From positions 62,001-126,000 of the forward strand of contig NZ_JAPPVQ010000013.1 of NCBI RefSeq assembly GCF_026768455.1: a DNA stretch of 64,000 nt, in the 5' to 3' direction. A program made the translations under genes and the position numbers. Below, piece by piece: positions 2,396 to 8,218 of this stretch (position 1 is the first letter of the stretch; each line of letters begins with the position of its first letter). Source of the stretch: Candidatus Nitrosotenuis cloacae (lineage in GTDB: Archaea > Thermoproteota > Nitrososphaeria > Nitrososphaerales > Nitrosopumilaceae). The notes below the pieces were generated by a model, which worked only from the letters and a program-made list of their open reading frames with translations, made no database searches and had not been told where the DNA came from.

Positions 2396-3413
2396 TCCAG
2401 CGGTCGGTAAACCTCTGCTGGTTCTGCAAAACTACAATCCGTGATGATTCCGATTCGTCCATTACCGAATAGATCCCGCTTTTTCTTGCCACCTCTCCTG
2501 CAAAATAGCTCACCTCCTCAAACTCTAGCATGTCTGTTCTTTGCAGCCTGTTTGTGGAGCGTCCTATGTGCATGTACGATTTTATCTCGATAAAGTGGAC
2601 GTTTGCCCTTTTTACCATGTCCGCAAACGCGCGAATCGACTGCTCAGAGTCGTTGTAACCTCGAATCAGCGTGACTCGCAGGACCGTCCTTGTGTCAAGC
2701 TCAGACATCATCTCAAGGGTGCGGTTCCACCTCTCCCAAGAGTCGTCGTACCTTGGCTTGTTTATTGCAACAAACGAGTCATAATCTGCGGCGTTTGTAG
2801 AAAGGTACAGCTGCGTTGGAAGCGCGTCCTCGTCCTTGAGCCTCTGTATCATGTCCGGCTCCTGGCCGTTTGTGACAAGAAATATCGACTTTGTCGCCTT
2901 GAGCGACTTTAGGTATCTTATCAGCTGGGGAAGCTTTGGGTACATCGTCGGCTCGCCTGAAAGCGATATTGCATAATGGCTTGGCAGGAGCGACTCGTCA
3001 AGCTTTTTTCTGTCCGATCTCGGGTCCCCATAGTGGCCCATTATCAGCCCCCTTCGCTCCTCCATCAGTTTGGCAAGCATCTCTTCTGGCTCGGCGACCT
3101 TTGATGCGTCCATCTTTAGAGAGTCGTAAAACTCCATCGGGCGCCAGCAGTAGACGCACCTGTTCTCGCAGTGCATCCCTGCAGGTGAAAACTCCATACA
3201 CTGGTGCGTCGATATTCCGTAGAACTTGTGCTTGTAGCAGCTCCCCTCGCCCTTGAACGATTTTTTTGTCCAGTGGCACAACTCGACTGTGGCGTGGTCT
3301 GCCACGCCGTACTTTGCCTTTTTGAGCTGCTTTAGAATCGACGGCTTGATCTGGATAAGCTCGTTTTCATATGTCTCACCTGAGCAGCTCATTGGAATGT
3401 CATCCCATTCCAT
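2370..3413 (-). CDS. taw1: 4-demethylwyosine synthase Taw1 (TYW1-like radical SAM)
   Basis: 347 residues. This radical SAM enzyme builds the tricyclic imidazopurine of wyosine on G37 of tRNA-Phe using pyruvate. The cluster motif is CENRCVYCW (CxxxCxxC), with a further upstream Cys in HQCMEF as expected for the second cluster of TYW1/Taw1. SLSGEPTMYP, FLVTNGQEP and LSTNAAD are family signatures. The frame opens at 3461, but ATG 3413 or 3392 fits better because TATA-like stretches (around 3433-3460) lie just upstream of them. It lies convergent to rdgB. Confidence 0.93.
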   Translation of the reverse strand: MEWDDIPMSCSGETYENELIQIKPSILKQLKKAKYGVADHATVELCHWTKKSFKGEGSCYKHKFYGISTHQCMEFSPAGMHCENRCVYCWRPMEFYDSLKMDASKVAEPEEMLAKLMEERRGLIMGHYGDPRSDRKKLDESLLPSHYAISLSGEPTMYPKLPQLIRYLKSLKATKSIFLVTNGQEPDMIQRLKDEDALPTQLYLSTNAADYDSFVAINKPRYDDSWERWNRTLEMMSELDTRTVLRVTLIRGYNDSEQSIRAFADMVKRANVHFIEIKSYMHIGRSTNRLQRTDMLEFEEVSYFAGEVARKSGIYSVMDESESSRIVVLQNQQRFTDRWITAYLQTS

Positions 3414-3492
3414 CAGATATGAAACCTTCGAGCATATATGGGTAAATATTATAAAATACACCCTCGATTTTGCAAAAACTTTGAACTAATTC

Positions 3493-3500
3493 TTAAATAT
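3493..3500 (+). promoter_or_regulatory. TATA-like box upstream of the candidate ncRNA
   Basis: CTTAAATA lies in an AT-rich stretch between taw1 (minus) and the folded RNA. A start 25 bases downstream would be near 3522-3525, giving the RNA a short leader of about 30 bases. corA has its own TATA-like box at 3688-3694, so the RNA is likely a separate transcript and not merely the corA leader. Confidence 0.4.
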
Positions 3501-3556
3501 GATAATTTCCTATATGGAGTAATGCGGAAGGATGTAATATCCAACAAATAATCCGC

Positions 3557-3650
3557 GCGTGGCCTAGCAGAACAGTTAGGTGGTCCATGAACGCATTGGC
3601 GTTATGGCAGTGAGAGGTGTTCTCTCGACGTTCTGCACTTGCGGCCACGC
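3557..3650 (+). ncRNA. candidate structured ncRNA, unknown family
   Basis: A compact fold can be drawn by hand. The outer 8-bp helix GCGTGGCC (3557-3564) pairs with GGCCACGC (3643-3650). A 7-bp helix GCAGAAC (3567-3573) pairs with GTTCTGC (3630-3636), with UA/ACUUGC as the internal loop. These enclose two hairpins: CCAT-g-AACGC/GCGTT-ATGG (3585-3607, 9 bp with one bulge, loop ATTG) and GAGAG/CTCTC (3612-3626). The result is a three-way junction with a single-stranded AGTTAGGTGGT arm. It is not a tRNA, since no TTCRANY T-loop or normal D-arm exists. It could be a stand-alone small RNA or, less likely, a regulator of the CorA gene 70 bases downstream. Confidence 0.6.
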
Positions 3651-3719
3651 CACCATAATTTCCACAAGCAGCAGACGCTAATCAAAATTTAAATCCATTA
3701 TCCTAGTCAAGTTGCTAAA

Positions 3720-4742
3720 TTGAAAAAGGAGCTCTTCATCAGCAAGCTGCCGCATTTGAGGCGGCACCCACAGCAAGACGACGTCATGCAGAGCCACACG
3801 GAGACCGTGCAGGGACACGGGTTTTCGTGGACCGACATACAAAACCCGACCCGCGCAGAAATCGACAAGCTTGGGGAATCGTACAGCTTCAACACGCTCA
3901 ACTTGGACGACTCTGTGTCAAAGATACAGCTTGCAAAAATAGACAGCTATGACGATCATTCCTTCATAATACTGCACTTTCCGCCGATGGTGATAAAAAA
4001 GGGGATGCCGCGAGTCAGCCAGCTTGCCGTGTTTATTGGAAAGGACTATCTGGTCACGATTCACAACGGCGAGCTAAAGCCGCTGGTGGACATGTTCATG
4101 CAGTGCAAGGAAAATGACCAACACCGAAACCACATCCTTGCCAAGTCGCCCGGATTTTTATTATACAAGATAATCGACGCGCTAGTCGACGACCTACTTC
4201 ACACGCTAAGGAGGATTGTTGCAAACCTTGACGAGATAGAAGACGACGTGTTTGATGAGAACAAATCCACCCCGAAAAAGATCTCAGTGCTCAGGCGCGA
4301 GATCACCATTCTGCGAAGAATCGTCCACCCGCTACGAAAAATAGTGCTGGAGACATCAAAGAATACACAGCGGTTCTCAAATCCCGACGACGACCTGGCA
4401 ATACACTTTGACGACGTAATCGACCACATCGACAAGGTCGCAGAGACGCTGGACGAGGCAAAGGAAACAATGGAGATCTACAAGGATACCGACTTTATGC
4501 TCAGCACCGAAAAGTCAAACAAGATACTTGCCACACTTACCATAATATTCACGCTGTCAATTCCGGCAACCGTGATCGGCGCCATATACGGAATGAATGT
4601 AAATCTCCCCGGCGGAATCCAGACCGGCAGCTGGGACGCGCTTGGGCCGTACACCACGTTTATCACGATGGTGTCAATATCGACAATACCTGCGGTGCTG
4701 ATGTTCCTGTACTTTTTTAAAAGAAAGTGGCTTGCAGAGTAG
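3720..4742 (+). CDS. corA: CorA-family divalent cation (Mg2+/Co2+) transporter
   Basis: 340 residues starting at TTG 3720. TTTAAAT at 3688-3694 gives leaderless spacing. It has a large soluble N-terminal domain, a long charged helical stretch around residues 150-270 (LDEIEDDVFDE, LRREITILRRIVHPLRK), and two C-terminal membrane helices. The first helix ends in the pore signature YGMNV near residue 294, and a basic tail (FKRKWLAE) follows. These are the defining CorA features. It forms a pentameric channel in the cytoplasmic membrane; substrate selectivity cannot be read from the sequence. The structured ncRNA lies directly upstream. Confidence 0.93.
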   Translation: MKKELFISKLPHLRRHPQQDDVMQSHTETVQGHGFSWTDIQNPTRAEIDKLGESYSFNTLNLDDSVSKIQLAKIDSYDDHSFIILHFPPMVIKKGMPRVSQLAVFIGKDYLVTIHNGELKPLVDMFMQCKENDQHRNHILAKSPGFLLYKIIDALVDDLLHTLRRIVANLDEIEDDVFDENKSTPKKISVLRREITILRRIVHPLRKIVLETSKNTQRFSNPDDDLAIHFDDVIDHIDKVAETLDEAKETMEIYKDTDFMLSTEKSNKILATLTIIFTLSIPATVIGAIYGMNVNLPGGIQTGSWDALGPYTTFITMVSISTIPAVLMFLYFFKRKWLAE

Positions 4743-4920: not shown

Positions 4921-4993
4921 GGCCTTCGTAGTACAGTGGCTAGTATAGGGGACTGTGGATCCCCGGACAGGGGTTCGATTCCCCTCGAGGGCC
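4921..4993 (+). tRNA. tRNA-His (anticodon GTG)
   Basis: The cloverleaf is complete. The acceptor is GCCTTCG (4922-4928)/CGAGGGC (4986-4992), followed by T8-A9. The anticodon stem GGGGA/TCCCC carries loop CTGTGGA, and the T-stem AGGGG/CCCCT carries loop TTCGATT. The base before the acceptor is G (4921) and the discriminator is C (4993), so the G-1:C73 pair that marks tRNA-His appears to be genome-encoded. CCA is not encoded. A TATA-like TTAATACTT lies about 25 bases upstream. No intron is seen. Confidence 0.95.
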
Positions 4994-5011
4994 TACATAA
5001 TTTTAGTATCA

Positions 5012-6647: not shown

Positions 6648-7580
6648 CTACCTTGTGCCATCTATTTTTTTTACCAGTTTTTGTAGATATTTTGTGAAGT
6701 CATTCACGAATCGATCAAACACCTTGTCGTTAAATTTCTCAATCAGCAGACTCTTTTCTGTTCCCCAATCAAACATGTTCCCCTTTTCCAAAAGTCGCTT
6801 TTTCTCGTCAAAATTCCTTCTGAATCTCTCGTAATGCTTCAATGCATAATTGATTTTTGGAATGACGCATTTTTCGACATCTTTAGGTTGTATTTTCAAT
6901 TTCTTTGAAACGAAGAATATATCGACGAAATCTCTTGCTTTTACCGCCCTTCTTGTCATCAATGCCCTTATCTTTTCACTAAGAATCTCTTTCGCGCTGT
7001 AAACTTCAAACGGCACAGCTGACGCGTATATCGGATATTCCCTGAATAGGCCCTCAAGTTTTGGGTTCTTGCCTTTGACAAGGCTCTTCAATCTCCCTTT
7101 TCTGGGTTTCAGGCACAAGATGTCAACAAAATTTATCTGAACTTTCAATAGCTTTCTGTCTTTCAGTATGGAGTCATACCAGACCTTGAACGTGCATACT
7201 CTTCCTCGACTGATCAGTTCTACGTAATCTCTGTTTTCCTTATCCAACTTGAAGTCAAGACCTCGCTTGCTGGCTATTTTTTCAAGAATCTTGCCTGTTT
7301 TTTCAATGATTCCAGACAAGTCTCTGTTGACATGACCTCCTGTCTTTCCGGCGAATCTGGACTGATCCTTCCACGTGAAGTCGATGTCCTCCGAGAACCT
7401 CAGATATCCTATGTAGTTCTTTATCAGACATGTGCCTCCCTTGAAAAGGAAATTTTCTGAAAAGAATGTTTCCTTGGAAAGGTCTGACAACACTAGGTGT
7501 AGCAGTATGTCTTTTTCTATCATTTCCTTTCGCTCGATTCCTTTTAGATCTGCAATTTTGTCCACAAAATCCATCATCAT
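6648..7580 (-). CDS. abiEii: AbiEii-family nucleotidyltransferase toxin
   Basis: 310 residues of the type IV toxin-antitoxin / abortive-infection nucleotidyltransferase. The polymerase-beta-type active site is visible: FLFKGGTCL (GG[ST]), then RFSEDIDF (DxD) near residue 65, a later central basic region, and KARDFVDIFF (the RDxxD motif IV) near residue 217. Family members transfer nucleotides, in known cases to the 3' end of tRNAs, and halt growth or block phage. It overlaps the antitoxin gene by 4 bases (ATGA), so translation is coupled. The coding DNA is more AT-rich than the flanking core genes. Confidence 0.9.
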   Translation of the reverse strand: MMMDFVDKIADLKGIERKEMIEKDILLHLVLSDLSKETFFSENFLFKGGTCLIKNYIGYLRFSEDIDFTWKDQSRFAGKTGGHVNRDLSGIIEKTGKILEKIASKRGLDFKLDKENRDYVELISRGRVCTFKVWYDSILKDRKLLKVQINFVDILCLKPRKGRLKSLVKGKNPKLEGLFREYPIYASAVPFEVYSAKEILSEKIRALMTRRAVKARDFVDIFFVSKKLKIQPKDVEKCVIPKINYALKHYERFRRNFDEKKRLLEKGNMFDWGTEKSLLIEKFNDKVFDRFVNDFTKYLQKLVKKIDGTR

Positions 7581-8218
7581 TTATTCATCGTCTCCGCTAT
7601 GTTTGCGACTGTTTTTGGATAATTTTTGGAATATTTCCTGATCTTTTCCCTGGAGGTGTTTTCTGCCCATTCTGACACATCCATTTCCGCCCTCATTGCG
7701 TCTTTACCTTCCTGAGTCATCAGGTAAATGAAATCAAGAATGGTTTTTTCTGGATCAGAGTAAGGCAGCATTGTGTTTTTTGATCTTATCACACCAAAAC
7801 TCAGCAACGACGGTGAGATTTTTACAAATCGGAACTTGTATCCGGAAATGGTGACTGGCTTGGCACGGAACAATGAATCGCTGATAACCTCGTCGATTGT
7901 AAAGTATTCGTGTGTCATATTGTTAAGTTTCAGCGCAGTATGCAATCCAAAATACCAGTTCTTTACACCCTTCAGCTCGAGCCCCTTTGCTACAAGCTCT
8001 AGATGGCTGTACTTACTCTTCTTCATCTTTGCTTCTTCCAGTGACTTGATATAGAATATTCCACGAAATATTCTCACAACATACTTCATCTTCAGAAGAT
8101 AGTGGATAGCCGAATCGTACTTCAGTTTGAATAGCTTGCAGTACTCTTTTAGGTCCTTAGAAGTCACAAACTCCTTTTTCTCTAACCATAATTTCTCTAG
8201 TAATACGGTCGTTTTCAT
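7577..8218 (-). CDS. abiEi: AbiEi-family antitoxin / transcriptional repressor
   Basis: 213 residues. The N-terminal winged-helix segment (KEFVTSKDLKEYCKLFKL, then MKYVVRIFRGIFYIK) is followed by the AbiEi_4-type domain, with FGLHTALKLNN, VTISGYKFRF, and the signature YSDPEKTILDFIY near residue 156. AbiEi proteins neutralise AbiEii indirectly and repress their own promoter by binding repeats there. Matching palindromes are present directly upstream (8221-8296). It is the first gene of the two-gene operon. Confidence 0.88.
   Translation of the reverse strand: MKTTVLLEKLWLEKKEFVTSKDLKEYCKLFKLKYDSAIHYLLKMKYVVRIFRGIFYIKSLEEAKMKKSKYSHLELVAKGLELKGVKNWYFGLHTALKLNNMTHEYFTIDEVISDSLFRAKPVTISGYKFRFVKISPSLLSFGVIRSKNTMLPYSDPEKTILDFIYLMTQEGKDAMRAEMDVSEWAENTSREKIRKYSKNYPKTVANIAETMNK

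Follow-up and report, generated by a model that had tools for sequence, protein, structure and literature searches.

The compact structure upstream of corA in Candidatus Nitrosotenuis cloacae raises the question of whether it is a leader of that gene or a gene in its own right and, in the latter case, whether its product is a non-coding RNA. The window analysed here comprises 64,000 nucleotides (contig NZ_JAPPVQ010000013.1 of assembly GCF_026768455.1, positions 62,001 to 126,000 of the forward strand), and positions are counted from its first letter. The first-pass annotation had read the structure as an independent small non-coding RNA folded into a three-way junction, with Mg2+-linked control of corA as the alternative.

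Fold, parts and identity of the RNA gene

The locus contains the following features, listed from 5' to 3':

3492-3499, plus strand: TATA box of the RNA gene, cTTAAATA, present upstream of nearly every homologue
3508-3514, plus strand: TCCTATA element just 5' of the predicted transcription start, found in most aligned promoters
3522-3551, plus strand: predicted leaderless mini-ORF, ATG CGG AAG GAT GTA ATA TCC AAC AAA TAA = MRKDVISNK*
3525-3556, plus strand: P0 hairpin domain made by the ORF (predicted fold of the window copy)
3557-3564, plus strand: 5' strand of P1 (8 bp), GCGTGGCC, pairing with 3643-3650
3567-3573, plus strand: 5' strand of P2 (7 bp), GCAGAAC, pairing with 3630-3636
3585-3594/3599-3607, plus strand: P3 hairpin (9 bp), CCATGAACGC/GCGTTATGG, with a single bulged G3589
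3612-3616/3622-3626, plus strand: P4 hairpin (5 bp), GAGAG-GTGTT-CTCTC
3630-3636, plus strand: 3' strand of P2, GTTCTGC
3643-3650, plus strand: 3' strand of P1, GGCCACGC
3688-3694, plus strand: separate corA TATA box, TTTAAAT, outside the RNA, recognised from the sequence and also seen in other members of the genus

Helices P1 to P4 span exactly 94 nt (3557-3650), and all four, including the 9-bp hairpin with one bulge, lie where the first-pass annotation had placed them. Its claim that the pairing exceeds chance is borne out by the folding energy of this segment (-40.7 kcal/mol, z = -3.18), which was equalled by 2 of 200 dinucleotide shuffles and was better than the other 198. The segment 3521-3655 folds at z = -3.13 (1 of 200 shuffles as good), and the wider interval of the first-pass annotation, 3493-3720, at z = -2.24 only. 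In the window copy, P0 is predicted to pair the GCGG region at 3524-3527 with CCGC at 3553-3556 and, further inside, GGAT with ATCC. Both promoters claimed at first pass, a TATA-like box upstream of the RNA and a separate one for corA downstream of it, are present, the corA start codon lying at 3720, downstream of TTTAAAT. The TCCTATA element may function as a melted or -10 region. The mature RNA probably ends shortly 3' of the P1 3' strand; four or more consecutive T occur within 20 nt of the RNA end in 145 of 171 homologous loci, a feature that is weak in the window copy. Most likely, the RNA gene is about 135 nt long and consists of a leaderless ORF/P0 part followed by the three-way junction of P1 to P4.

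Compensating changes in related genomes had been proposed at first pass as a check of the helices, and they are abundant. In an alignment of 63 distinct homologues, 97.3% of the pair cells are paired and 24 of the 28 pairs have changed compensatorily on both sides, values that 0 of 500 shuffles and none of six slid controls come near. Among 33 diverse members, 96.1% of the pair cells are paired and 25 of 28 pairs have changed on both sides, with such changes in P1 (7 of 9 model pairs), P2 (7 of 7), P3 (7 of 7 modelled pairs) and P4 (4 of 5). RNAalifold, supplied with no structure, returned the same helices from 96 rows (22 of 25 pairs with two-sided changes), in an alignment that had been fitted to the covariance model and is hence biased towards structure; when 27 copies were aligned freely with MAFFT, the fold came out unchanged, with compensation in six pairs. 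As covariation is found in all helices, the comparison indicates that the junction fold is conserved under selection. In some copies of the genus, codons 8-10 (ACAAAUA) could pair perfectly with the P2-P3 linker (AUUUGU); inspection by eye showed that this pairing is not conserved, and it was rejected as a general feature. No conserved single-stranded target-binding segment was found across genera.

A covariance-model search against Rfam, the other check suggested at first pass, matched no family: at the gathering threshold, Rfam 15 gave no hit in the window or in the homologous loci, and at E values up to 10 only chance matches. The denial of a tRNA, SRP or RNase P identity also holds. ARAGORN placed no tRNA or tmRNA at the RNA locus, its only hits in the window, tRNA-His and tRNA-Leu, lying elsewhere, and SRP RNA (RF01857) and RNase P RNA (RF00373) were rejected as identities because both genes were found elsewhere in the same genome. 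Inspection of the alignments by eye revealed no conserved boxes of the kind that mark box C/D or H/ACA guides. Literature on archaeal and thaumarchaeal small RNAs, structured-RNA surveys and leaderless or dual-function RNAs contained no description of the element, in a search for which subscription papers were mostly out of reach; the element may have been detected earlier in N. maritimus transcriptomes or published elsewhere.

Distribution and gene neighbourhoods

By DNA search, the element was detected in all 17 genomes of Nitrosotenuis, most of which carry it twice, and in a single further genus. The first covariance model, built from 27 copies, was positive in 17 of 17 genomes of the genus and in 170 of 200 Nitrosopumilaceae genomes, covering 16 of 22 genera with one to five copies per genome. 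A wider model matched 80 of 250 genomes across the order and 30 of 200 across the phylum, all of them Nitrosopumilaceae, and when 33 genomes were searched anew with the model of greatest diversity, no other family of the order yielded a match. With lax filters, four further genera of the apparently RNA-less set yielded matches or weak matches. Among 84,980 species genomes scanned for the motif, 118 stretches matched, all but two of them in thaumarchaeal or unspecified archaeal records. The two exceptions (L206 and L211) are contigs binned as Hyphomicrobiales and Chitinophagaceae MAGs and score 110-117 bits, which suggests that these are misbinned contigs of Nitrosopumilaceae. None of the IMG/VR viral contigs carried the motif pattern.

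The absence of the RNA from genus g11 was considered and rejected, since diverged copies were located at the syntenic place by way of the convergent neighbour gene. These homologues keep the junction (28 bits with model R2, 59 bits with model R3) and show no visible nine-codon ORF, so that the junction appears to be the more basic part and the ORF a part that can be lost. Two of them (L268, 1930-2051, and L270, 1840-1924, both on the minus strand) have an almost wholly rewritten P1, the same type of P4 loop (G-N-A-A/G-U) and a common 5' segment, GGTTGCAAAAATCC, where the ORF would be. The 0.8 Mb genomes of genus g5 (G020, G065 and G080) possess amoA and gave no RNA with lax filters; in G020 and G065, no homologue of the convergent neighbour protein was found. 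Genuine loss of the RNA in these smallest genomes is possible. An accessory role for AMO was dismissed on the phylogenetic profile, because amoA is present in genera in which no RNA was detectable (g5, g8 and g14) as well as in other families that lack the RNA.

At the commonest locus, common to many genera, a short-chain dehydrogenase gene diverges upstream of the RNA, a gene for a small predicted membrane-anchored protein (no Pfam match) converges on it at a distance of 0-13 nt, and TFB often comes next. Other paralogues are situated between aroC and aroA or beside a purP-like gene, and the location between taw1 and corA occurs only in Nitrosotenuis, where the RNA precedes corA by 67-116 nt on the same strand. 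The downstream gene is convergent in 136 of the 163 loci in which it could be called; same-strand cases are mostly copies next to corA. Together, the TATA box of its own, the mostly convergent neighbour, the terminal T-run and the several unrelated neighbourhoods argue for a stand-alone RNA gene of a multi-copy family and against a corA leader.

The Mg2+-linked control of corA entertained at first pass finds no support in this comparison, given that corA adjacency is confined to the genus of the window and that the other copies mostly face a convergent gene. Cis-acting control of a downstream gene in general, whether by a Mg2+ sensor or by a translation-coupled attenuator, has been largely refuted by synteny, and we regard it as very improbable. 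The same-strand position shortly before corA in the genus of the window would fit it, and a leader ORF followed by a structure does resemble an attenuator; however, the prevalence of convergent genes makes a cis-regulatory role unlikely, the neighbours of the paralogues differ (corA, the small predicted membrane-anchored protein, aroA, purP-like, TFB) and provide no consistent cis target, corA is equipped with a separate promoter downstream of the RNA, and no codon is enriched in the ORF.

Further observations concern individual loci. A third paralogue, shorter at about 121 nt, occupies the opposite strand between aroC and aroA in several genera (g4, g12, g15; loci L221, L224, L226, L229 and L257, at about 3001-3121), with the P4/P2 part most divergent. 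Locus L250 carries tandem RNA copies about 190 nt apart (3001-3120 and 3310-3428), each with its own TATA box and mini-ORF (nine and eight codons). On the minus strand of the window, an AbiEii nucleotidyltransferase toxin (PADLOC, E = 1.3e-57) and its AbiEi partner (4.8e-50), a type IV toxin-antitoxin pair, are encoded at 6648-8218, about 1.7 kb beyond tRNA-His (4921-4994).

The nine-codon reading frame

The ATG at 3522 lies 26 bp from the centre of the TATA box, a distance at which the transcript should be leaderless, and opens a frame of nine codons that is closed by TAA at 3549-3551, 5 nt before P1. This geometry was compared in 175 distinct RNAs, with the start codon picked solely by its distance from the TATA centre; the copies are related by descent, and the counts are therefore not independent. 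The distance is 26 bp in 156 and 25-27 bp in 170 of the 175, and the codon found there is ATG (168), GTG (5) or TTG (2). From this start, the frame runs for nine codons in 158 RNAs and for eight in 12, the latter being shorter by exactly one codon (3 nt), and ends in TAA (110), TAG (45) or TGA (15). Among the deviant copies, L155 and L095 have lost the usual stop, so that their frame runs on to the following stop inside P1, L099 has no ATG at the aligned place, and L081 is truncated. Protein genes in the RNA loci show no more than a weak TATA peak (25-26 bp), and general leaderlessness of such genes was accordingly left out of the argument.

In the last 10 nt before P1, 167 stop triplets share the frame of the ORF, against 2 and 11 in the other frames; for 25 representatives of less than 72% identity, the corresponding counts are 23, 1 and 1. 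The spacer between the stop and P1 varies freely from 2 to 5 nt (3, 4 or 5 nt in 169 of 170), and the distance from the start to P1, taken modulo 3, is consequently spread over all phases (63/79/28). Being in phase with the AUG and out of phase with P1, the stop is tied to the AUG and not to the helix, a pattern that we take to mark translation and not an RNA motif. The constraints on start, length, stop and phase, as read from the sequences, strongly support a putative leaderless mini-mRNA of the dual-function small RNA class. Of the independent small non-coding RNA described at first pass, the promoter, the stand-alone character and the real junction thus stand, and the term non-coding probably does not: with a predicted leaderless nine-codon ORF as its 5' third, the RNA is probably not purely non-coding.

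The encoded residues, by contrast with length and frame, are not conserved. The 88 ORFs compared specify 81 different peptides, with the initiator Met as the sole residue common to all; related copies read MPKDIIPID, MRKDINPID, MSLVVKSGD, MAEKSRQMT and VIVESLQMA, among others. Among similar ORFs, the synonymous share of single-base codon differences is 0.220, against a chance expectation of 0.227. The amino acids thus appear to evolve neutrally, in a test that is confounded by the overlapping P0 hairpin. The hairpins formed by the ORFs are stabler than those of codon-shuffled versions (mean z = -2.73 for the 88 ORFs), so that structure accounts for some of the constraint on the sequence. Such pressure confounds the test of neutrality, yet it cannot create a reading frame.

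Proposed mechanism and comparison with known systems

We hypothesise that the RNA is both a trans-acting structured RNA and a leaderless mini-mRNA, in which the act of translation matters and the peptide does not, a reading for which we see the chances as evenly balanced. The mRNA entry of the ribosome is expected to lie about 10-12 nt from the P-site codon, and the fixed spacing between the stop and P1 means that a ribosome could finish the ORF with P1 at the entry. We propose the following hypothetical sequence of events, in which (i) the ribosome would load directly on the 5'-terminal AUG, with no leader; (ii) it would melt P0 and translate nine codons of free sequence; (iii) it would terminate just as its leading edge reaches the base of P1, with P1 at the mRNA entry; (iv) the three-way junction would act in trans as the effector, on the ribosome or on other RNAs, while translation of the ORF would couple the folding, stability or activity of the junction to the state of translation. 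The comparison itself demonstrates the conserved structure, its distribution, the promoter geometry, the constraint on ORF start, length and stop, the absence of constraint on the peptide and that of a consistent cis target; transcription and translation of the RNA, the effector role of the junction, the coupling and the trans target are what we infer from it. More tentatively, and with confidence well short of even, we suggest that the RNA represents a novel archaeal RNA class: its leaderless nine-codon ORF, fixed in length and free in sequence, would have the sole task of delivering a ribosome to the base of the junction, and the RNA would thereby read out or control translation.

The main competing view is that of a plain structured ncRNA acting in trans, with the apparent ORF as an untranslated by-product of a conserved 5' hairpin and initiator sequence. 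It would account for the wider conservation of the junction than of the ORF, the g11 copy that lacks the frame, the extra stability of P0 over shuffled hairpins and the unconserved amino acids. We nevertheless consider it unlikely, as a hairpin leaves unexplained the interchange of ATG, GTG and TTG and of TAA, TAG and TGA, the eight-codon variants that are shorter by exactly 3 nt, and a stop whose phase follows the AUG instead of P1. The same reading frame could conversely make the RNA a micro-gene, the product of which would be the nonapeptide (a signal, an inhibitor or the precursor of a modified peptide), with the junction acting as a 3' UTR that confers stability. The fixed number of nine, rarely eight, residues across very divergent copies and the multiple copies with varied peptides are in line with this view; the residues, however, are free of purifying selection (81 peptides from 88 ORFs), and the junction is conserved far beyond the needs of a UTR and persists without the ORF in g11, which renders a peptide gene distinctly improbable. 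A minigene or hibernation device, in which the ORF would trap ribosomes or peptidyl-tRNA, the junction would block mRNA entry and an abundant RNA would lower translation, is suggested by the sequence evidence that underlies our preferred reading, in particular the combination of a short, sequence-free ORF with a helix at the ribosome entry. In a tRNA trap the last sense codon would be important, but this codon varies, and we rate such a device as slightly less probable still than the peptide gene.

An ORF that is preserved in length and frame and not in its residues is unusual, and it raises a testable question, namely whether translating a meaningless peptide can be what makes a small RNA work. 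Nitrosopumilaceae are among the most abundant marine archaea and carry out much of the global ammonia oxidation, and no regulatory RNAs of the family turned up in the literature searched. The presence of the RNA in nearly all Nitrosopumilaceae, even in reduced genomes of about 1.2 Mb, suggests that it is probably important. The alignment and the covariance model are ready for searching existing transcriptomes for this new RNA family.

In bacteria, dual-function sRNAs (SgrS/SgrT and Spot 42/SpfP, for example) combine a short ORF and an RNA function on one molecule, as is proposed here. Their peptides are conserved and functional, in contrast to the unconserved peptide of the Nitrosopumilaceae RNA, the ORF of which is predicted to be leaderless and is of fixed length. 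The structured ncRNA Tan1, abundant in marine group II Euryarchaeota (PMC5069720), is comparable as a lineage-specific archaeal RNA of an abundant type with a complex predicted structure and no assigned function; its description sets it apart by its length of 229 nt and its occurrence in another phylum. The sRNAs of Haloferax volcanii are archaeal small RNAs found on ribosomes as well, and in the accessible part of the report most are without a detectable protein product (PMC12482152); that part describes neither a fixed leaderless nine-codon frame nor a conserved three-way junction for them, and they do not appear homologous. The closest parallel in design is rnTrpL/peTrpL of Sinorhizobium meliloti, a trans-acting attenuator sRNA whose 5' end coincides with the ATG of a leader ORF of 14 aa (PMC7298713). 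On our reading, both would be small leaderless mRNAs and riboregulators with the AUG of a tiny ORF at the 5' end, followed by a structured RNA and a terminator. However, rnTrpL derives from an attenuator before trpE(G) and has Trp codons in its ORF, whereas the Nitrosopumilaceae RNA mostly lacks a same-strand downstream gene and has no conserved codon; it also has many paralogues, a promoter of archaeal type and the three-way fold. As far as our searches show, neither rnTrpL nor the Haloferax sRNAs are homologous to it. The RNA is thus best filed as a family new to Rfam 15, of the leaderless or dual-function small RNA kind, with the sequence-free ORF as its unusual feature.
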